DNA of 38,227 bases from Bacteroidota bacterium (GTDB taxonomy: Bacteria; Bacteroidota; Bacteroidia; Cytophagales; UBA9547): the NCBI GenBank assembly GCA_004293915.1, contig RDZG01000072.1, positions 1 through 38,227 on the forward strand. The letters run 5' to 3'. Below the pieces are notes generated by a model, which did no database searches, was not told the origin of the DNA, and saw only the letters and a program-made list of their open reading frames with translations. The translations under genes were made by a program, and so were the position numbers. Positions 5,189 to 11,890 of this stretch are shown here, in pieces (the first letter of the stretch is position 1; every line of letters starts with the position of its first letter).

Positions 5189-5326
5189 GACACAAAGAAC
5201 AATATTGTTCGTTGTAAAAGAATAATATTGTTTGTTGTAAAAGACGTATTCAGAAAATCAAAAAAGATAATTATCTTTCTTTGTAAAAGAATAATAATTA
5301 TCTTTGTAAAAGAATAATAATAAATA
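5189..5326 (+). repeat. Array of six 23-bp tandem units carrying promoter-like boxes
   Basis: Six consecutive 23-nt units begin at 5189, 5212, 5235, 5258, 5281 and 5304. The last one ends at the A of the ATPase start codon. The core TTGTAAAAGA is exact in the units at 5212, 5235, 5281 and 5304 and degenerate in those at 5189 and 5258. The second half of each unit is AT-rich and partly palindromic (ACAATATTGT, GATAATTATC). Across the junctions of units 4/5 and 5/6 the sequence reads TATCTTTC and TATCTTTG; the latter (5299-5306) is a match to the -7 consensus TAnnTTTG. The rest of the 4921-5325 gap shows no gene. The array could be a multiplied promoter or a binding site for a multimeric regulator. 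Confidence 0.75.
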
Positions 5327-6525
5327 TGGTTTACAAAGAACAAATAGAAACAGCTTTTGTAGAACAGCAGAAACACACAAGAGATGATTTTTTTATAGAC
5401 AGAGAACCAATAAAAGCTATTTCTGTAAAAACTAGCCATATCGTGGTGCTTACAGGCATACGCAGATGTGGAAAGAGTACATATATGCAACAACTCATCG
5501 TCAAACATTATCAAAATGTTGCTTTTTTTAATTTTGAAGATCCACGCATATTTGGTTTTTCTGTAGAAGATTTTTCAAAACTTAGCGAAGTAATGGGCAA
5601 CGATAAGGAAGCCTATTTTTTTGATGAAATACAAAATATAATAGGCTGGGAAGTATTTGTACGACAATTGCACGACAGAGGGAAAAAAGTGTTTATCACA
5701 GGTTCAAATGCCAATTTGCTTAGTAAAGAATTAGGTACTCGTCTCACTGGTAGATACTTAAGTTATGAGATATTTCCGTTTTCGTATCAAGAATATTTGG
5801 TTTATTTTAAAAAAAACGATTCGGATGATGTTTTTCTAGAATATATACAGCTAGGTGGATTTCCAGAATACCTCAAAGATAAGCTCGATGAAATCGTGCA
5901 AACACTTTTGAAAGACATTGTATATAAGGATATCGCCATACGTTATGGGGTTAAAAACTCACATATATTAATGCAAATAGCCTTGTATTTGATATCAAAT
6001 GTGGGTAAAGAAGTGAGTATCAACAATATAAAAAATGCTTTTTCAGTAGGATCAACTTCTTCGGTTTCAGATTATTTACATTGGTTTGCAGAAACTTATT
6101 TGTTCTTTTTTGTACCAAGATTTAGTTGGTCTCAAAAAAGTATAGTTCGTAATCCCAAAAAAGTATACACCATAGATACTGGTTTTGCCCATAAAAATTC
6201 ACTCAGTTTTACCTCGGATTATGGTCGGTTGCTCGAAAATTTTGTTTATATACAACTCCGAAAACGAAATTTGGAGGTATATTATTTTAAAGAAAAAAAA
6301 GAATGTGATTTTGTGGTTTTTCAAAATACTGTTTTTCAATATGCTATACAGGTTTGTACTGTGTTACATGCCGATAACCGCCTACGCGAGATGGAAGGAT
6401 TGCTCGTAGCATTAGATTTTTTTAAAATAAACAAAGGTTATATCCTCACTATGAACCAAACCGATACGATACAAATAGAAAATAAAACTATAGAAATAGT
6501 AAAAGCCAAAGATTTTGTGTTTTAA
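5326..6525 (+). CDS. AAA+ ATPase with DUF4143 C-terminal domain
   Basis: This 399-aa cytoplasmic protein belongs to the large Bacteroidota/archaeal group of AAA_14-DUF4143 ATPases, whose biological role is not established. Walker A is GIRRCGKST (residues 44-52) and Walker B is YFFDE (97-101). The sensor-like segment VFITGSNANLL and the arginine-rich LGTRLTGRY follow. A helical middle region contains a winged-helix-like part (NIKNAFSVGSTSSVSDYLHWF). The C-terminal domain (LLENFVYIQLRKRN, then KKECDFVV and AIQVC) resembles a restriction-endonuclease fold, but the usual E-x-K is Q-x-C, so nuclease activity is unlikely. It is a single gene between a 23-bp repeat array and the hydrogenase-like operon. 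Its free-standing character suggests a mobile cassette, but no transposase or terminal repeat was found. Confidence 0.9.
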   Translation: MVYKEQIETAFVEQQKHTRDDFFIDREPIKAISVKTSHIVVLTGIRRCGKSTYMQQLIVKHYQNVAFFNFEDPRIFGFSVEDFSKLSEVMGNDKEAYFFDEIQNIIGWEVFVRQLHDRGKKVFITGSNANLLSKELGTRLTGRYLSYEIFPFSYQEYLVYFKKNDSDDVFLEYIQLGGFPEYLKDKLDEIVQTLLKDIVYKDIAIRYGVKNSHILMQIALYLISNVGKEVSINNIKNAFSVGSTSSVSDYLHWFAETYLFFFVPRFSWSQKSIVRNPKKVYTIDTGFAHKNSLSFTSDYGRLLENFVYIQLRKRNLEVYYFKEKKECDFVVFQNTVFQYAIQVCTVLHADNRLREMEGLLVALDFFKINKGYILTMNQTDTIQIENKTIEIVKAKDFVF

Positions 6526-6639: not shown

Positions 6640-7308
6640 ATGATGAATATATTGGTTTTGCTTTTTTGCATCACACTCATATCGTTGCTCACTTCGGGTA
6701 GGTTACGTACTTATTCTAATGCGCTTGCTTTGCAAGGGATTTTGCTTTGTGCCATTTCTTTCAAAGAATTGCAAGAACTGAAAGAACTAAACTATCTCAA
6801 TTTGGTATTTATTATGCTCGAAACGCTATTATTTAAAGGAATTATAGTGCCATTTTTTTTAAATTATTTAATCAAAAAAAATAATATTCATTACGAAAGA
6901 GAGCCAAACGAAACCAATTTTTATGCGCTTTTTAAAATTGCAATTATTTTTATTTTTTCCTTTATTATTGGCTATAAACTTCATCATCACGATTTCAATA
7001 TTTCCATTGGCACAAACGATACATCAAAAATCATTTTCTTTACTGCTTCGCTTTCGGCAATTTTTACAGGTTTATTGATTGTAATTCGCAGGACAAAAAT
7101 TATCACACATATTGTTGGCTATTTGGTAATTGAAAATGGGCTTTTTTTACTCACATTGGCTTTGGGAGATGAGATGCCAATTGTTGTGAATTTAGCTATT
7201 TTGTTTGATATTATTTCAACCACTTTGCTACTCGGGGTTTTTGTAAATCGTGTTCAAATGACATTTAAAGATACCGAAATTGGCAAACTAACCGAACTTA
7301 GAGATTAG
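6640..7308 (+). CDS. hyfE: HyfE-like (NuoK/MrpC-related) membrane subunit
   Basis: This 222-aa integral membrane protein has about six to seven hydrophobic segments, starting with ILVLLFCITLISLLTSGRL. It resembles hydrogenase-4 component E, whose C-terminal half is related to the complex I subunit NuoK and to MrpC (VGYLVIENGLFLLTLAL carries the buried Glu typical of that family). In energy-converting complexes this subunit forms part of the membrane ion-translocating arm. Two adjacent ATGs (6640, 6643) give equivalent starts. The stop codon is followed after one nucleotide by the HyfF-like gene, which indicates translational coupling. HyfB- and HyfC-type partners, normally encoded upstream, are absent here; the preceding gene is an unrelated ATPase. 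Confidence 0.85.
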   Translation: MMNILVLLFCITLISLLTSGRLRTYSNALALQGILLCAISFKELQELKELNYLNLVFIMLETLLFKGIIVPFFLNYLIKKNNIHYEREPNETNFYALFKIAIIFIFSFIIGYKLHHHDFNISIGTNDTSKIIFFTASLSAIFTGLLIVIRRTKIITHIVGYLVIENGLFLLTLALGDEMPIVVNLAILFDIISTTLLLGVFVNRVQMTFKDTEIGKLTELRD

Positions 7309-7309
7309 T

Positions 7310-8740
7310 ATGGAACCCATTATTATCTATTTGCTTATTACACTTTTTGTTTCAGCTGCTATGTTTTTTGCCAGAAATAAATGGCTAAGTTTTTCATTAT
7401 TTATTCCAGCTGTAATTTCACAATTTTGGTTTTTATATTGGACTTATACCCACAGAGGCGGAAAATTTTTAACCTATTTTAGAGTCGATTCTATTGGCGT
7501 TTTATTTATTGGTGTGATATCTATTTTATTTGTTTTTAGTATTATTCATACTTATTTATACGACCAAGATCGCAAATCACCTATCCGACAAGTAACCATT
7601 CAAAATGCTGTAATGGTTGCATTTATTACCGCAATGAGTTGTGCCTTAATTTCCGACCATTTGGGTTTGTTGTGGGCTTTTTTAGAAGCCACAACCGTTT
7701 GCTCTGCTATTTTAATATATTTTGATCGCACAAATATTTCTCTTGAAGCAGCTTGGAAATACTTTTTTATCTGTTCAATTGGTTTGGCATTGGCTTATGT
7801 TGGCATTTTGTTTTTAGGAATTGCCGGACAAGAAAAAGAGCATTTGGATATTTCGGTAAGTTTGTTGCGAACTAAAGTACACGAATTGAGTCCGATTTGG
7901 CTCAAAATAAGTTTCTTATTTGCGATTGTTGGTTTTAGTGTAAAAATGGGTGCAGCCCCACTTTTCACTGTTGATATCGATGCAAAAGACACTGCACCTT
8001 CGCCAATTGGAGCCTTATTTTCTGGTGGGTTGCTTAATGTTGGCTTTGTAGCAGTATTTCGGTTTTACGAAATTTTTGCAATGACCGAAATTCGTGATTG
8101 GATGGATAAAGTTATAATGATTATTGGTGTTTCATCAGTATTTTTTGCAACGGTATATTTATTAAAAGTAAAAAATATTAAACGTTTGTTGGCTTATTCG
8201 AGCCTCGAACATGTAGGCATTGCTTTGATTGCACTTGCTTCTGGAGGCATTGGAATTATGGCAGCCATTTTGCATTTAGTTATACATTCTTTTGTAAAAG
8301 CTGGACTTTTTTATCAAATCGGGCAACTATACAGAACTTATCAAGACAAAGACATTATGCTTCATGGCGAATATTTTAAAAATTATCCTGCTGGTGCAAT
8401 TGTATTAATGATAGGCTTTTTGTTTATGATGTCTATTCCGCCATCTGCACTTTTTCTTACCGAATTTTATACTTTTGGAGCTTTGTTTTCAAGTTTTCAT
8501 TGGATTATAGGTGTATTGGTTTTGGGTTTGCTCACGGTTATATTTTATGCCTTAACCAAAGCCTTAATTCAAATTTTATTTGCACAAATGCTACCTATGC
8601 AAGAAGTTCAACAACGTATAAATCCTTGGGAATCAGTTAGTCAATACATAATTATGGCAGCGGTTTTGTATATGGGCATTTTCCCAAATCAAACATTGAT
8701 AAATTTTGTTGCCGAAGCTGTTAGCCATTTGCCAAAATAA
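7310..8740 (+). CDS. hyfF: HyfF-like antiporter/NuoN-type proton-translocating membrane subunit
   Basis: The 476-aa polytopic protein belongs to the proton-conducting transporter family (NuoL/M/N, MrpA/D, HyfF). Charged residues that line the proton path in this family are present: Glu126 in WAFLEATT, Lys150 in AAWKYFF, Lys212 in GFSVKMGAAP, His322/His325 and Lys330 in HLVIHSFVKAG. The loop after Lys212 (LFTVDIDAKDTAPSP) corresponds to the family's H-x-W-L-P-D-A-H/P-x-x-P region, here in the HyfF variant. The membrane channel therefore looks functional. The gene begins one nucleotide after the HyfE-like stop. The next gene of the complex (9575) lies 834 nt further on because a toxin-antitoxin pair intervenes. 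Confidence 0.9.
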   Translation: MEPIIIYLLITLFVSAAMFFARNKWLSFSLFIPAVISQFWFLYWTYTHRGGKFLTYFRVDSIGVLFIGVISILFVFSIIHTYLYDQDRKSPIRQVTIQNAVMVAFITAMSCALISDHLGLLWAFLEATTVCSAILIYFDRTNISLEAAWKYFFICSIGLALAYVGILFLGIAGQEKEHLDISVSLLRTKVHELSPIWLKISFLFAIVGFSVKMGAAPLFTVDIDAKDTAPSPIGALFSGGLLNVGFVAVFRFYEIFAMTEIRDWMDKVIMIIGVSSVFFATVYLLKVKNIKRLLAYSSLEHVGIALIALASGGIGIMAAILHLVIHSFVKAGLFYQIGQLYRTYQDKDIMLHGEYFKNYPAGAIVLMIGFLFMMSIPPSALFLTEFYTFGALFSSFHWIIGVLVLGLLTVIFYALTKALIQILFAQMLPMQEVQQRINPWESVSQYIIMAAVLYMGIFPNQTLINFVAEAVSHLPK

Positions 8741-8990: not shown

Positions 8991-9215
8991 ATGAATATAT
9001 CACATACAGCACCAATAAAGTTAGAGCTATTTAGAGAGATTGATAAAATGACCGAAAAAGAACTAATAGCTATACATCAATTCATAGTTAAAGACCATAA
9101 AAAAGATTTTTATGATTTGCTTGAAGATTGGCAAAAAGAAGATATTGAAGCTGGATTGAGAGATATTAAAGCTTCTAAAACGATGCCAGTTGAATCATTT
9201 TTGAAAAGTTTGTAA
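8991..9215 (+). CDS. Antitoxin-like small protein (RelE/ParE partner)
   Basis: This 74-aa acidic, mostly helical protein carries the C-terminal signature of the antitoxins that accompany RelE/ParE toxins in Bacteroidota: a DLLEDWQKEDIEAGLRDI block followed by a short extended tail (PVESFLKSL) that would cover the toxin. I see no clear N-terminal DNA-binding fold (the EKELIAIHQFI helix is the only candidate), so autoregulation is uncertain. The stop codon TAA (9213-9215) overlaps the toxin ATG by one nucleotide, the usual coupling in such pairs. The pair interrupts the hydrogenase-like operon between the HyfF- and HyfG-like genes. Confidence 0.8.
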   Translation: MNISHTAPIKLELFREIDKMTEKELIAIHQFIVKDHKKDFYDLLEDWQKEDIEAGLRDIKASKTMPVESFLKSL

Positions 9216-9523
9216 TGGAAATCGGAATAAATTATGAAGTATTGATTTCAGAAAATGCACAAATTAGATTTAAAGAAATATTACTTTATTTAGATATAAA
9301 TTGGTCTGAAAGTGTAAAAAATAATTTTGTATTAAACTTCAAGAAAATCATTGAGATATTAAAAAGCAACCCCTATTTGTTTCAAGAATTTTCAAAAAAG
9401 AAAAAAATAAGAAAATGTTTAATTACGAAACATAACGCACTTTATTATACCATTTCAAACAACAAAGTACAAATTATTACAATTCAAGACACAAGACAAA
9501 ATCCTAAAAAACTAAAATTATAG
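9215..9523 (+). CDS. RelE/ParE-superfamily toxin
   Basis: This 102-aa basic protein has the ParE/RelE toxin layout: an N-terminal strand (YEVLISENAQIRFKEILLYLD), an amphipathic helix with the NWSE motif (INWSESVKNNFVLNF), NPYLFQEF, and the C-terminal block KIRKCLITKHNALYYTISNNKV followed by the TRQNPKKLKL tail typical of the Bacteroidota branch. Members either cleave ribosome-bound mRNA or inhibit gyrase. The sequence does not allow a choice here, though the NP-LF and QNPKKL segments are closer to ParE-like plasmid-stabilisation proteins. It starts within the stop codon of the antitoxin gene and ends 51 nt before the HyfG-like gene. Confidence 0.85.
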   Translation: MEIGINYEVLISENAQIRFKEILLYLDINWSESVKNNFVLNFKKIIEILKSNPYLFQEFSKKKKIRKCLITKHNALYYTISNNKVQIITIQDTRQNPKKLKL

Positions 9524-9574: not shown

Positions 9575-9587
9575 ATGAAAACCATAG
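9575..9587 (+). repeat. 13-nt direct repeat, right copy (hyfG-like start)
   Basis: ATGAAAACCATAG forms the start of the HyfG-like gene and repeats the sequence at 8771-8783 exactly, 804 nt apart. The match stops on both sides. The two copies bracket the toxin-antitoxin genes. Confidence 0.45.
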
Positions 9588-11107
9588 AAACAAAAAATAA
9601 TATTCCCGTTGATTTAGCCGATGTGCCAATTCACACTTACGCCATTTTTTTTGAAATTGTGAGTGCTTTGATGAAAAACAAAACAGTGCATTGCACCACC
9701 TATTTTGCATTTGAAAACAAAACTAATCTGCAATTTATTTGCTGTTTAGCAGATGATGCCACAAGTAGTTTACATTTATTATCTCACCAAATGCCAATAG
9801 ATGCTTTGGAGCCGATTGAAGCATTAACCAAAAAAATAAACGCTTTTCATATTTTTGAACGTGAAATTGCCGAAAATTTTGGTGTTGAATTTAAAAATCA
9901 TCCTTGGCTAAAACCAGTTCGATATGCAAAAAATAGAGCAAATTCCGAAAAACAAATTAATAATTACCCTTTTTTCAAAATCGATGGATTTGATACACAT
10001 GAAGTTGGAGTTGGTCCCATTCATGCTGGCATTATCGAACCTGGACATTTTCGGTTTTCGTGCCATGGCGAAATTGTGCATCACCTCGAAATCCAATTGG
10101 GTTTTCAACATCGAGGAATCGAAAAATTATATCTTACCAAACCACATTTGCTCCAACGCACCATTTTAACAGAAAATATTGCTGGTGATACAGCCATTGG
10201 ACACACCTTGGCTTTTGTAAATATGATGGAAGCCTTGTATGGAATCGAAAAAGATATTCGTTGGGTAAAAATGGATATGCTTCGTTCGTTGGCATTGGAA
10301 GTCGAACGCATTGCTATTCATGTTGGCGACATGAGCAATTTGTGTTTAGATGTGGCTTATCAGCTCGGAAATGCAGTTTTTGGTGCTTTGCGAACTCCTG
10401 TAATTAATTTTTTTCAGTTTTGGTGTGGCAATCGTTTTGCAAAAGGACTATTGCGAGTGGGCTATAATCCGCACCCGTTTACACCCCAATTGATGGAGCG
10501 TTTGGTAAAAATTTTGGAAGAATTTGATATAAAATACATGGAAATGCAACACAAAACTTTTACGCTTCCGAGTGTATTAAATCGTTTTGAAAAATGTGGC
10601 ATTTTGAACATGGAGCAAATGGATATGATTGGTGCGGTGGGTATGTCGGCACGTATGACAGGTATTTCAAGAGATGTTAGAGCTTCACACCCTTTTAATT
10701 ATTACGAACATTTGGCTTATGAACCTGTGCTTTTAGAAACAGGCGATGTATATGCACGAGCCATGATGCGAAATTTAGAAATACAAAAATCTATGGCTTA
10801 TATTCGAACTATGCTTTCGCAAATTTATCGTTTAAATGTAGAAGAGCCTCAAAAATATAGAGCAGATATTTACGACAAAAAAATGATTCCAAATCAGATA
10901 TGTGTTTCATTAACAGAAGGCTGGAGAGGCGAAATTTGCCACACTGGAATCACAAACGAAAAAGGTGATTTGATGCATTATAAAGTAAAAGATCCTTCGA
11001 TGCACAATTGGACTGCACTTGCTTTGGCATTACGACAAAACGAAATTTCTGATTTTCCTATCAACAACAAAAGTTTTGATTTGAGTTATTGTGGACATGA
11101 TTTATAA
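9575..11107 (+). CDS. HyfG-like large subunit (NuoC-NuoD fusion) lacking NiFe ligands
   Basis: This 510-aa soluble subunit has an N-terminal NuoC/30-kDa-like domain (about 1-130, ending in the FHIFEREIAENFGVEF motif) and a C-terminal group-4 hydrogenase/NuoD-like domain (GPIHAGIIEPGHFRF, HLEIQLGFQHRGIEKL). In hydrogenases the NiFe centre is held by R-x-C-G-x-C and D-P-C-x-x-C. Here the first motif reads NIAGDTAIGH, with Ala203 and Thr206 in place of the cysteines. The second reads FDLSYCGHDL at the extreme C-terminus, with Ser504 and Gly507 at the aligned cysteine positions and only a shifted Cys506. It cannot bind a NiFe site in the known way. It matches the hydrogenase-related (Ehr) branch rather than an active hydrogenase. 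The next gene follows 21 nt downstream. Confidence 0.88.
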   Translation: MKTIETKNNIPVDLADVPIHTYAIFFEIVSALMKNKTVHCTTYFAFENKTNLQFICCLADDATSSLHLLSHQMPIDALEPIEALTKKINAFHIFEREIAENFGVEFKNHPWLKPVRYAKNRANSEKQINNYPFFKIDGFDTHEVGVGPIHAGIIEPGHFRFSCHGEIVHHLEIQLGFQHRGIEKLYLTKPHLLQRTILTENIAGDTAIGHTLAFVNMMEALYGIEKDIRWVKMDMLRSLALEVERIAIHVGDMSNLCLDVAYQLGNAVFGALRTPVINFFQFWCGNRFAKGLLRVGYNPHPFTPQLMERLVKILEEFDIKYMEMQHKTFTLPSVLNRFEKCGILNMEQMDMIGAVGMSARMTGISRDVRASHPFNYYEHLAYEPVLLETGDVYARAMMRNLEIQKSMAYIRTMLSQIYRLNVEEPQKYRADIYDKKMIPNQICVSLTEGWRGEICHTGITNEKGDLMHYKVKDPSMHNWTALALALRQNEISDFPINNKSFDLSYCGHDL

Positions 11108-11128
11108 TATTTAACACACACTTGAAAT

Positions 11129-11890
11129 ATGTTTGACGAAATAAAAATATTACAACATCAAGGAAAGCAATTTATTCCTGATGTTACAAAAGTGAATCTT
11201 CCAGTTTCTTTTGCTGTTGGCAGACCAGAAATTGCCGAAGATATTACTGCTGAAAATGCAAAACTTGCCAAAGCCATTTGCCCCACTCAAGCTATTGAAA
11301 ACGAACCATTTAGCATAGATTTAGGCAAATGTACGTATTGTATGGAGTGTGTACGCATTTGCGGAAAAGACAAAATAAATTTCACTAACGATTATAAAAC
11401 CGCAACCAATGTGCGAGAGCGTTTGATTGTGAAAGCAGGCGAAAAACATCCAATTACAATCGACCAAAGTTTGGTAAGACCCGAAATAAAAAAACTCTTT
11501 AAAAACTCTTTAAAACTGAGACAAGTTTCGGCTGGTGGAGATAATTCACAAGAATGGGAATTAGGAGCAACTAATAATGTGAATTTTGATTGCAGCCGAT
11601 TTGGAATAGATTTTGTGGCTTCACCTCGCCATGCCGATGGGATTGTGATTACAGGTCCGATTACCGAAAATATGGCAGAACCTTTGCAGATTTGTTACGA
11701 TGCCATTCCAGAGCCAAAACTCATTATTTTGGTTGGTACCGATGCTATTAGTGGTGGTATTTTTGAAGGATCACCAGCTTTAAATCGGTCGTTTTTAGAT
11801 AAAAATACGATAGATTTATATGTGCCAGGAAGTTTGATACATCCGCTAACGTTTGTAAATGGGGTATTAGAAATGATCGGACAAATATAG
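11129..11890 (+). CDS. HyfI/NuoB-like small subunit fused to a ferredoxin domain, proximal cluster lost
   Basis: This 253-aa soluble subunit has an N-terminal ferredoxin-type region in which Cys51 (ICPTQAI) and Cys68, Cys71, Cys74 (CTYCMEC) can hold one [4Fe-4S] cluster. Cys78 is left over and the second CxxCxxC set is missing. The C-terminal region is NuoB/HyfI-like (RFGIDFVASPRHADGIVITGP). The four ligands of the proximal N2-type cluster are all replaced: the G-S-C-N-x-C position reads GATNNV (Thr148, Val151), V-G-D-C-A reads VGTDA (Asp205) and P-G-C-P-P reads PGSLI (Ser235). The peptide between the first motif and RFGI is also shortened. Electron transfer to the large subunit by the classical path looks impossible. 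It ends 2 nt before the convergent folB. Confidence 0.87.
   Translation: MFDEIKILQHQGKQFIPDVTKVNLPVSFAVGRPEIAEDITAENAKLAKAICPTQAIENEPFSIDLGKCTYCMECVRICGKDKINFTNDYKTATNVRERLIVKAGEKHPITIDQSLVRPEIKKLFKNSLKLRQVSAGGDNSQEWELGATNNVNFDCSRFGIDFVASPRHADGIVITGPITENMAEPLQICYDAIPEPKLIILVGTDAISGGIFEGSPALNRSFLDKNTIDLYVPGSLIHPLTFVNGVLEMIGQI

Follow-up and report, generated by a model that had tools for sequence, protein, structure and literature searches.

Ehr complexes and the window locus

It has long been asked how the head of complex I brings about proton movement at a distance within the membrane, and the answer is usually sought in electron transfer from cluster N2 to quinone; in the DAC/DAB system (DabA-DabB), a NuoL-like proton subunit is coupled to a non-redox head. 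The founding papers on the energy-converting-hydrogenase-related (Ehr) complexes are reportedly those of Marreiros et al. in 2013 and Coppi in 2005. In the accessible parts of two later sources, Ehr is defined by a group-4-type large subunit without conserved NiFe-coordinating residues, and the N2 cluster of the small subunit is not named as a defining feature (PMC6349859, PMC10284858; the words 'N2 cluster' do not occur in the accessible text of the former). Ehr function is given as unknown in the corresponding parts of PMC12342949 and PMC10284858. Of the 562 relatives confirmed in a scan of genome contigs, the best 80 were used; the scan finds Ehr complexes spread over many phyla.

The window considered here is the whole 38,227-nucleotide stretch of Bacteroidota DNA that was analysed, and the features placed on it below are all on its forward strand. 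Sequence comparison confirms positions 9575-11890 as the EhrL and EhrS genes of an Ehr complex, and both open reading frames are present as the earlier note had described them. EhrL (9575-11107, 510 aa) fuses NuoC-like (30 kDa) and NuoD/HycE-like (49 kDa) domains (Pfam PF00346, PF00329), and EhrS (11129-11890, 253 aa) fuses a HycF/NuoI-like ferredoxin domain to a NuoB/HycG-like domain, with PF01058 matched over residues 144-248 and Fer4 over 62-78, the latter below its cut-off. Upstream lie a HyfE-like membrane subunit, EhrC (6640-7308, 222 aa; NCBIfam hydrogenase 4 membrane subunit, E 5.9e-14, below the model cut-off), whose place in the operon is conserved among relatives, and a HyfF-like antiporter-type subunit (7310-8740, 476 aa; PF00361, E 9.2e-44), which we infer to be EhrD. 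A ParE-like toxin gene (9215-9523, PF05016) and a preceding small ORF (8991-9212, without a match in the Pfam search) together occupy 8991-9523, outside the complex and interposed between the HyfF-like gene and ehrL. The operon is split in this genus: the HyfB-like (EhrA) and HyfC/NuoH-like (EhrB) genes of the window genome stand on another contig (G000:C52), and in a second genome of the genus (G001) the HyfF-like gene adjoins ehrL, and S is located apart from L. In a third, a 380-contig draft (G002), L is present and EhrS was not found.

The locus shares with the Ehr of Geobacter sulfurreducens (EhrA-1/A-2/B/C/L/S, GSU0739-0745) its subunit plan, gene order, absence of NiFe cysteines and fused ferredoxin and NuoB-like small subunit, but lacks N2, one of two ferredoxin clusters and the upstream HTH-EIIA gene; a relative from Geomonas (L113) retains all four N2 cysteines. 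With group 4 NiFe hydrogenases and formate hydrogenlyase (HycEG, HyfGI) it has homologous membrane subunits and common head-subunit folds, as the predicted EhrL superposes on HycE (7z0s_E) with Z 40.3 and rmsd 2.5 over 487 aligned residues, and EhrS on HycG (7z0t_G) with Z 15.2 and rmsd 2.3 over 139. The fold search matched complex I and hydrogenase chains, and is informative mainly for residues 118-253 of S and 137-510 of L. Unlike those hydrogenases, the complex lacks all eight NiFe and N2 ligand cysteines. With complex I (NuoB, NuoC, NuoD, NuoH, NuoL/M/N) it has in common its fold, the acidic residues of the NuoH-like subunit and the antiporter Glu/Lys residues; however, EhrS is devoid of N2, whereas the genome's own NuoB carries all four cysteines. 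The quinone-site Tyr of NuoD presumably aligns to EhrL Gly204.

Loss of the NiFe and N2 ligands

In EhrL, the former RxCGxC motif reads Ala203-Gly-Asp205-Thr206 (10181-10192) in the alignment with HycE, and the former C-terminal DPCxxC motif has become DLSYCGHDL (11078-11104). Cys241, Cys244, Cys531 and Cys534 of Escherichia coli HycE align to Ala203, Thr206, Ser504 and Gly507, which upholds the loss of NiFe cysteines that had been claimed. EhrL thus has none of the four NiFe-coordinating cysteines, in agreement with the definition of Ehr, and lacks the two CxxC motifs by which group 4 NiFe hydrogenases are recognized; a full set of four occurs in none of 89 large subunits, all of which retain Asp205. 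The hydrogenase maturation gene hypD is absent from the window genome (given as 100% complete, in 156 contigs), consistent with the absence of a NiFe site.

In EhrS, the loss of all four N2 ligands stands, as do two of the positions assigned to them in the earlier note, Asp205 (11741-11743) and Ser235 (11831-11833); the other two, Thr148 and Val151, do not, and the true sites are Asp138 and Gln141 (11540-11551). The correction follows from HMMER alignment, in which the family's SAGGDN... stretch matches without gaps the N2 motifs found in MbhJ and HycG, from a concurring MAFFT alignment with HycG, and from N2-bearing relatives: a near one (L185) has SAGGCNACENEL at the place of SAGGDNSQEWEL in the window. 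The single ferredoxin-type cluster ascribed to this subunit was borne out, its ligands Cys51, Cys68, Cys71 and Cys74 (11279-11350) being cysteine in 108/108 small subunits.

It had been left unsaid how common such N2 loss is in Ehr. All four cysteines are kept by 56 of the 108 small subunits and absent from 52 (the window counted, and one protein counted twice), in a sample chosen for likeness to the window, so that the N2-less fraction is not an estimate for Ehr in nature; loss is not general, and marks one Bacteroidota clade. Nor do other cysteines take over, since the NuoB-like domain holds too few: 50/52 N2-less rows have at most three after residue 110, among them ten with one and the window with two, the other two rows having four or five. 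Outside the ferredoxin domain, cysteine exceeds one fifth of N2-less rows only at positions 141 (67%), 148 (44%) and 189 (79%), and window EhrS has only Cys155 and Cys189. The commonest replacement of the four ligands is Asp-Cys-Asp-Asn (35/52).

In large-subunit trees, built without any N2 column by quick searches without bootstrap, the N2-less rows form one side of a branch, with SH-aLRT support of 100 (36 scored N2-less rows) and 96 (51 rows), although the second run warned of long branches meeting and the placement of one row (L172) is unsure. On this topology N2 is lost once, in one Bacteroidota clade, and as the cluster is absent throughout that clade, the N2-less Bacteroidota complexes are a variant of Ehr. 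Just outside it, the nearest outgroup (L141) keeps N2, and its EhrL is 52% identical to that of the window, near the midpoint of the 47-58% spanned by N2-less members outside the genus. Both trees, which hold no curated Ehr reference, separate all relatives, Geomonas among them, from HycE/HyfG. The N2-less rows come from many Bacteroidota families, many with intact operons, which disposes of the notion that the window copy alone is degenerate.

Working of the complex without N2

We consider it somewhat probable, at about 0.58, that the complex is a proton-coupled membrane machine driven from the L/S head by a small-molecule or conformational event, with no electron transfer through N2. Such an event would take place at the former NiFe/quinone cavity, and the NuoH-like subunit would couple it to the movement of protons in EhrA and EhrD. 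The remaining [4Fe-4S] cluster would serve structure or redox sensing, and would not act as a wire; the cluster-to-cluster distances used here are those of complex I. The proposal of an Ehr-type complex that keeps its proton-channel residues and has no canonical redox wire holds up. In the HyfF-like subunit, Glu126, Lys212 and Lys330 are present as reported and at least 95% conserved in both N2-less and N2-bearing groups, as are E170, K249, K280 and K377 of the HyfB-like subunit (numbered on its 691-aa open frame) and E124, E132, E184, D191, E198, E204 and E266 of the HyfC/NuoH-like subunit. In EhrL, 86 positions are conserved to that degree in both groups, and residues around the old active site are invariant across relatives. 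Ten positions in L switch between groups, and five in S, three of which are N2 ligands.

Against the same-genus G001, dN/dS is 0.095 for L, 0.083 for S, 0.14 for the HyfF-like and 0.033 for the HyfE-like subunit, and against G002 it is 0.139 for L; dS is saturated (1.3-2.8), and these ratios, rough as they are, indicate purifying selection on four subunits. The paucity of cysteines for a second cluster, the few positions of L that switch with the loss of N2, and the retention of pump residues and head, all count for a complex that N2 does not drive. As N2 was lost once while head, fold and membrane residues were kept under purifying selection, the large subunit's role appears to have outlived the N2 relay. 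On the other side, the absolute conservation of the ferredoxin cluster is as expected of a redox protein and counts against a non-redox reading; L changed somewhat with the clade, as 17 of its positions are conserved solely among N2-less members and five solely among N2-bearing ones; and the split operon in the genus, and S not being found in G002, likewise weigh against the proposed working.

The same cluster, present in 52/52 N2-less rows, speaks for a redox alternative, in which another centre, for instance a mononuclear metal at Asp138/141/Asp205/Asn235 or a bound organic cofactor, would replace N2 and supply the L site with electrons from the ferredoxin cluster. Asp138 (50/52), Asp205 (47/52) and Asn235 (46/52) are largely kept, where the majority residue of a column averages a fraction of 0.75, variants such as Asp-Asp-His-Ser look metal-friendly, and a cofactor in the emptied site would be invisible to sequence. 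However, these columns rank only 59th, 93rd and 102nd of 253 in conservation, the window has Asp-Gln-Asp-Ser, and in some members position 141 is Ala, Val, Gly or Tyr or position 235 is Phe or Tyr, while one has Ala in place of Asp138. We regard a substitute centre as unlikely, while giving it more weight than the three alternatives discussed next.

Doubtful, and more so, is the suggestion that the head formed by L and S is a remnant capping a plain Mrp-type cation/proton antiporter made up of EhrA, EhrD and EhrC. Its antiporter-type subunits are indeed intact, and G002 would supply an example of L without S; but G002 is a 380-contig draft, and identity to a further genome (G006) is higher for L (57%), S (63%) and the HyfC/NuoH-like subunit (58%) than for the HyfB-like (45%), HyfE-like (48%) and HyfF-like (45%) subunits. 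Against G001, L and S also have a lower dN/dS than the HyfF-like subunit, and the 86 shared conserved positions of L speak against a vestigial head. Decay of the complex in the window lineage would accord with the broken operon of the genus, in which EhrA and EhrB lie on another contig, a toxin-type gene separates EhrD from L, and S stands apart from L in G001, but is largely refuted by open frames, by dN/dS ratios far below 1 for four subunits and by the 52 N2-less rows, and we hold it to be very improbable. Equally improbable is an electron-input head for formate dehydrogenase, as proposed for Margulisbacteria and Saganbacteria in the accessible part of PMC6349859 (FDH-Ehr) and in keeping with Ehr subunits being more abundant in G. 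sulfurreducens on formate than in hydrogen-containing conditions (PMC7894505). An Fdh-alpha-like protein in the window genome (601.9 bits, under the cut-off of 666) also speaks for this reading; but the path from formate dehydrogenase to L is cut where N2 is missing, no formate dehydrogenase was recognized by eye among the 40 largest neighbour clusters, and the gene of that Fdh-like protein is on a different contig, some 4 kb away from a NuoH gene.

Driven by something other than electron flow, as this membrane pump may be, the N2-less clade with its retained head, NuoH-like link and antiporter residues opens head-to-membrane coupling to study minus the electron step from N2, and argues against N2 electron delivery as the core of Ehr function.

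Gene neighbours and inorganic carbon

The neighbours of Ehr operons hint at inorganic carbon, which is the best lead for a substrate and a concrete, testable candidate. SulP genes adjoin a minority of operons, in five arrangements; a same-strand SulP gene lies within 500 bp after S in 4/88 loci with at least 800 bp past S. The N2-bearing outgroup L141 also has SulP beside S, with the start of the SulP ORF overlapping S. At another locus (L155) a SulP-STAS-EIIA fusion lies between L and S, its EIIA domain belonging to the same Pfam family as that in the HTH-EIIA gene which precedes other Ehr operons (30 loci, with one genome counted twice). Elsewhere, at one locus each, EhrL-EhrS are followed by DabA, two antiporter-type proteins and SulP-PII (L091), and EhrS by a beta-carbonic anhydrase (L089); the accessible part of PMC3826726 places a beta-carbonic anhydrase beside the hyf cluster of Acidithiobacillus caldus.

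It is conceivable, though we advance it only tentatively, that Ehr is a non-redox, proton-coupled inorganic-carbon machine, performing vectorial CO2/HCO3- conversion or bicarbonate uptake in the manner of DAC/DAB with an EhrLS head, in which case the N2-less clade would be a natural experiment in head chemistry without electrons via N2. The likeness to DAC/DAB is one of proposed working mode, and the difference lies in the EhrLS head and the lack of DabA in the window genome. Searches found no SulP, beta-carbonic anhydrase or DabA (PF10070) in that genome, which counts against the inorganic-carbon reading, and among the neighbour genes of the sampled loci no obligate partner of the N2-less clade was found beyond the operon itself. 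No earlier report of an N2-less Ehr or of an inorganic-carbon function for Ehr was found in the accessible parts of one open-licence library.

Two further neighbours deserve mention. At one locus (L158), S is followed by a 181-aa ORF that scores 40 bits to the SulP query and has no Pfam match, and it was excluded from the SulP count. At three loci of a single genus (L161, L162 and L166), S is followed by a PaaE-like reductase, named by eye.

Loss of N2 along one branch of Ehr complexes

The earlier note held that the large subunit (EhrL, 9575-11107, + strand) and small subunit (EhrS, 11129-11890, +) of an energy-converting-hydrogenase-related (Ehr) complex have lost the ligands of both the NiFe site and N2, the iron-sulfur cluster of the NuoB/HycG-like domain. 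In alignment, Cys241, Cys244, Cys531 and Cys534 of E. coli HycE correspond to EhrL Ala203, Thr206, Ser504 and Gly507; in the 89 large-subunit loci compared, where the window enters once as L012, Cys occupies position 203 in 10 cases and position 206 in none, while Ser504 and Gly507 are each found in 88, with one gap apiece. Extracts of earlier work describe Ehr without metal cysteines in CPR (PMC7304191), and the motifs SGD[TS].. and NLSYSGHDL of hydrogenase-like large subunits in Acidithiobacillus (PMC6002666), which resemble the Ehr motif of the present EhrL. Taking HycG Cys48, Cys51, Cys115 and Cys145 as N2 ligands, the counterparts in EhrS are Asp138, Gln141, Asp205 and Ser235, and aligning with HMMER to MbhJ and HycG, without gaps, gives the same sites. 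The loss of N2 ligands stands, although the first two sites had been wrongly put at Thr148 and Val151.

Relatives were chosen for their likeness to the window, and the fractions that follow describe that sample. In a first set of 79 small subunits the N2 positions read CCCC in 43 (N2-bearing) and not in 36 (N2-less), 23 of the latter carrying DCDN. The enlarged sample comprises 56 N2-bearing and 52 N2-less small subunits, window included, with DCDN in 35/52. This count omits L012 and L015-L020 (repeat retrievals, with longer flanks, of genomes already included), L157 (complex I), L181 (a hydrogenase-like cluster), and L154 and L155 (deep HycE-like Ehr, both CCCC), adds L182, and holds one protein twice per group (L059/L176; L106/L145). 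L185, the small subunit of genome G596, read by eye outside the count, is CCCC.

On a tree of EhrL, which holds no N2 column, every scored N2-less row lies on the same side of one branch, so that N2 would most simply have been lost once. SH-aLRT support for this branch is 100 with 36 scored N2-less rows, and 96 on a larger tree with 51 N2-less and 58 N2-bearing among 122 rows (11 unscored; L012-L020, L157 and L181 left out of the tally). Just outside the clade branch the N2-bearing L141 and, on a long branch of unsure placement, L172 (G596; N2-bearing by L185). As EhrL of L141 is 52% identical to the window's, mid-range of the 47-58% for N2-less members outside the genus, EhrL changed little where N2 was lost; some change is nevertheless evident, with 17 positions conserved only in the N2-less group and 5 only in the N2-bearing group (first set).

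EhrL was found at E 1e-50 or better in 17/395 Bacteroidota-phylum genomes sampled (the window's own and L140 N2-less, 15 N2-bearing), and in 16/395 genomes of the window's class (its own and 14 others N2-less, G596 N2-bearing). The window's EhrL is nearest those of two same-genus genomes, then that of Cytophagales contig L066, and EhrL of the same-family genome G004 (L020) is identical to that of the Cytophagales-titled contig L059; this places the organism in the Bacteroidota, and probably in the Cytophagales. An N2-less Ehr also occurs on L063, a 4.6 kb contig placed in a Phycisphaerae bin, possibly in error, its true origin then being Bacteroidota.

Operon layout and constraint

The window is contig C80 of a 3.85 Mb genome in 156 contigs. 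Upstream of ehrL lie HyfE-like (6640-7308, +) and HyfF-like (7310-8740, +) genes, and an AAA_14/DUF4143 ATPase gene (5326-6525) sits just 5' of the former, the place of EhrA/EhrB in relatives. A ParE-like toxin gene (9215-9523, +) and a small ORF 5' of it (together 8991-9523) split the HyfF-like gene from ehrL; both look inserted, since the flanking genes are adjacent in same-genus G001. HyfB-like and HyfC/NuoH-like genes, absent from the window, adjoin each other on another contig of this genome, C52. Where relatives offer sufficient flank, the order is mostly B-(B)-C-E-F-L-S in a single operon. Counting against a functional complex, that operon is fragmented in the window's genus: G001 has S separated from L, and in the 380-contig draft of same-genus G002, where EhrL lies on G002:C370 (L174), no EhrS was found.

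With the C52 genes, the window's subunit plan is that of Geobacter sulfurreducens Ehr: partial accounts of EhrA-1, EhrC, EhrL and EhrS (PMC7894505), and of ehrA-2 and ehrB (PMC13194489), match the present subunits, and the HyfF-like subunit would be EhrD. The excerpt of PMC13194489 regards Geobacter ehr as nonfunctional, which speaks against any Ehr function there. Elsewhere in the window's genome, a 1180-aa Fdh-alpha-like protein, below the family cut-off, is encoded near a NuoH gene (G000:C30:33767-41003), hinting at a second complex-I-like cluster. In a Verrucomicrobia MAG, a second HyfB-to-HycG-like operon lies directly 3' of the Ehr operon (L095:12263-19900).

Against G001, dN/dS (Nei-Gojobori) is 0.095 for L, 0.083 for S, 0.14 for F and 0.033 for E; the comparison with G002 gives 0.139 for L. 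These values are rough given dS of 1.3-2.8. AlphaFold2 models S with pLDDT 95.0 and pTM 0.91, and L with 92.0 and 0.93; the former matches HycG (Z 15.2, rmsd 2.3, 139 aligned) and the latter HycE (Z 40.3, rmsd 2.5, 487 aligned). Conserved at 95% or more in both groups of the first set are Glu126, Lys212 and Lys330 of F, Glu170, Lys249, Lys280 and Lys377 of B (numbered on the 691-aa open frame), Glu124, Glu132, Glu184, Asp191, Glu198, Glu204 and Glu266 of C, and 86 positions of L. Ten positions in L and five in S switch between the groups, three of the latter being N2 ligands. Identity to genome G006 is 57% for L, 63% for S and 58% for C, versus 45% for B, 48% for E and 45% for F. N2-less Ehr is thus genuine, shared across a clade and under selection. 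It is a variant form of a known complex, the function of which is given as unknown in extracts of PMC12342949 and PMC10284858, as is its benefit in ammonia oxidisers (PMC10432482, in part); an FDH-Ehr complex has been proposed (PMC6349859, likewise). The portions searched of the open-licence Ehr literature yielded no mention of N2 loss.

Proposed coupling without N2

EhrS Cys51/68/71/74 are Cys in all 52 N2-less and all 56 N2-bearing rows; we take this set to be N6b of complex I, the cluster nearest N2. Without N2, the gap from N6b to the old active site would presumably be too long for fast electron transfer, judging from complex I. The second ferredoxin cluster was scored as intact if Cys78 is present and the 14 residues preceding Cys51 hold at least 3 Cys. 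It is intact in 6/52 N2-less rows, all of them members of the window's family or L059, the identical contig, and in 34/56 N2-bearing rows, and is thus missing in many of both; in the window it is missing, with Cys78 left over.

Because the head and its membrane link persisted when N2 went, the reaction of L would be independent of electrons through N2, at least in the N2-less clade. We favour non-redox coupling, in which binding or a conformational change within the old cavity of L would be transmitted to EhrA and EhrD by way of the NuoH-like subunit. The main rival is a replacement cofactor at Asp138, Asp205 and Asn235.

Neighbouring genes and a possible link to inorganic carbon

The surroundings of Ehr offer a lead towards inorganic carbon. 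A SulP gene directly follows S in the N2-less L042, L050, L170 and L177 (L016 being the genome of L177) and in the N2-bearing L141, directly precedes B in L180 (N2-less), and precedes an HTH-EIIA gene in L106 (= L145), L116, L147, L148, L149 and L150; it lies farther off in L088 and L117, and none was found in the fetched stretches of L146, L151, L152 and L153, relatives of L106. Pfam confirmed SulP in L042, L050, L016/L177, L106, L091, L180, L141, L155 and G712/L170, the remainder resting on phmmer likeness to these. SulP proteins carry sulfate too, and several cases are related, with L042, L050, L170 and L180 grouping together on the EhrL tree.

As a control, 25 self-chosen Ehr-bearing genomes (G156, G596 and 23 from the N2-less clade) were scanned for SulP: 16 contain it, in 32 match rows or about 30 genes. 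In four of the 25 (G006, G014, G712, G156) the Ehr operon has SulP as its direct neighbour, with about 0.01 expected by chance, assuming about 3,500 genes per genome. Against the lead count the absence of SulP from 9 of these 25, and the window's genome, in which no SulP, beta-carbonic anhydrase or DabA was found. Extracts of the literature place a beta-carbonic anhydrase gene immediately beside A. caldus hyfBCEFG (PMC3826726) and carbonic anhydrase genes recurrently beside those of formate hydrogenlyase or formate dehydrogenase, naming Desulfocapsa sulfexigens (PMC10880623), and discuss SulP next to carbonic anhydrase as a sulfate/carbonate antiporter system (PMC2621215). A structure of the vectorial CO2-hydrating DAB2 is listed as PMC13144422.

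The HTH-EIIA gene occurs in 30 loci, all N2-bearing (by phmmer; one Pfam-checked), for example 5' of the Ehr operon at L113:2103-2777, and in no N2-less locus examined; in the first set the counts were 18/44 N2-bearing versus 0/45 loci of the N2-less clade, the flank being too short in some. A beta-carbonic anhydrase gene follows S in L089, and in a deep Ehr cluster a SulP-STAS-PTS EIIA fusion is encoded between the L and S genes (L155:6939-9134). A Planctomycetaceae MAG (L091:177-12368) encodes in a row HTH-EIIA, EhrL, EhrS, DabA (E 1.9e-241), two antiporter-type genes and SulP-PII; no EhrA-D genes separate HTH-EIIA from EhrL, and the row starts close to the contig's end.
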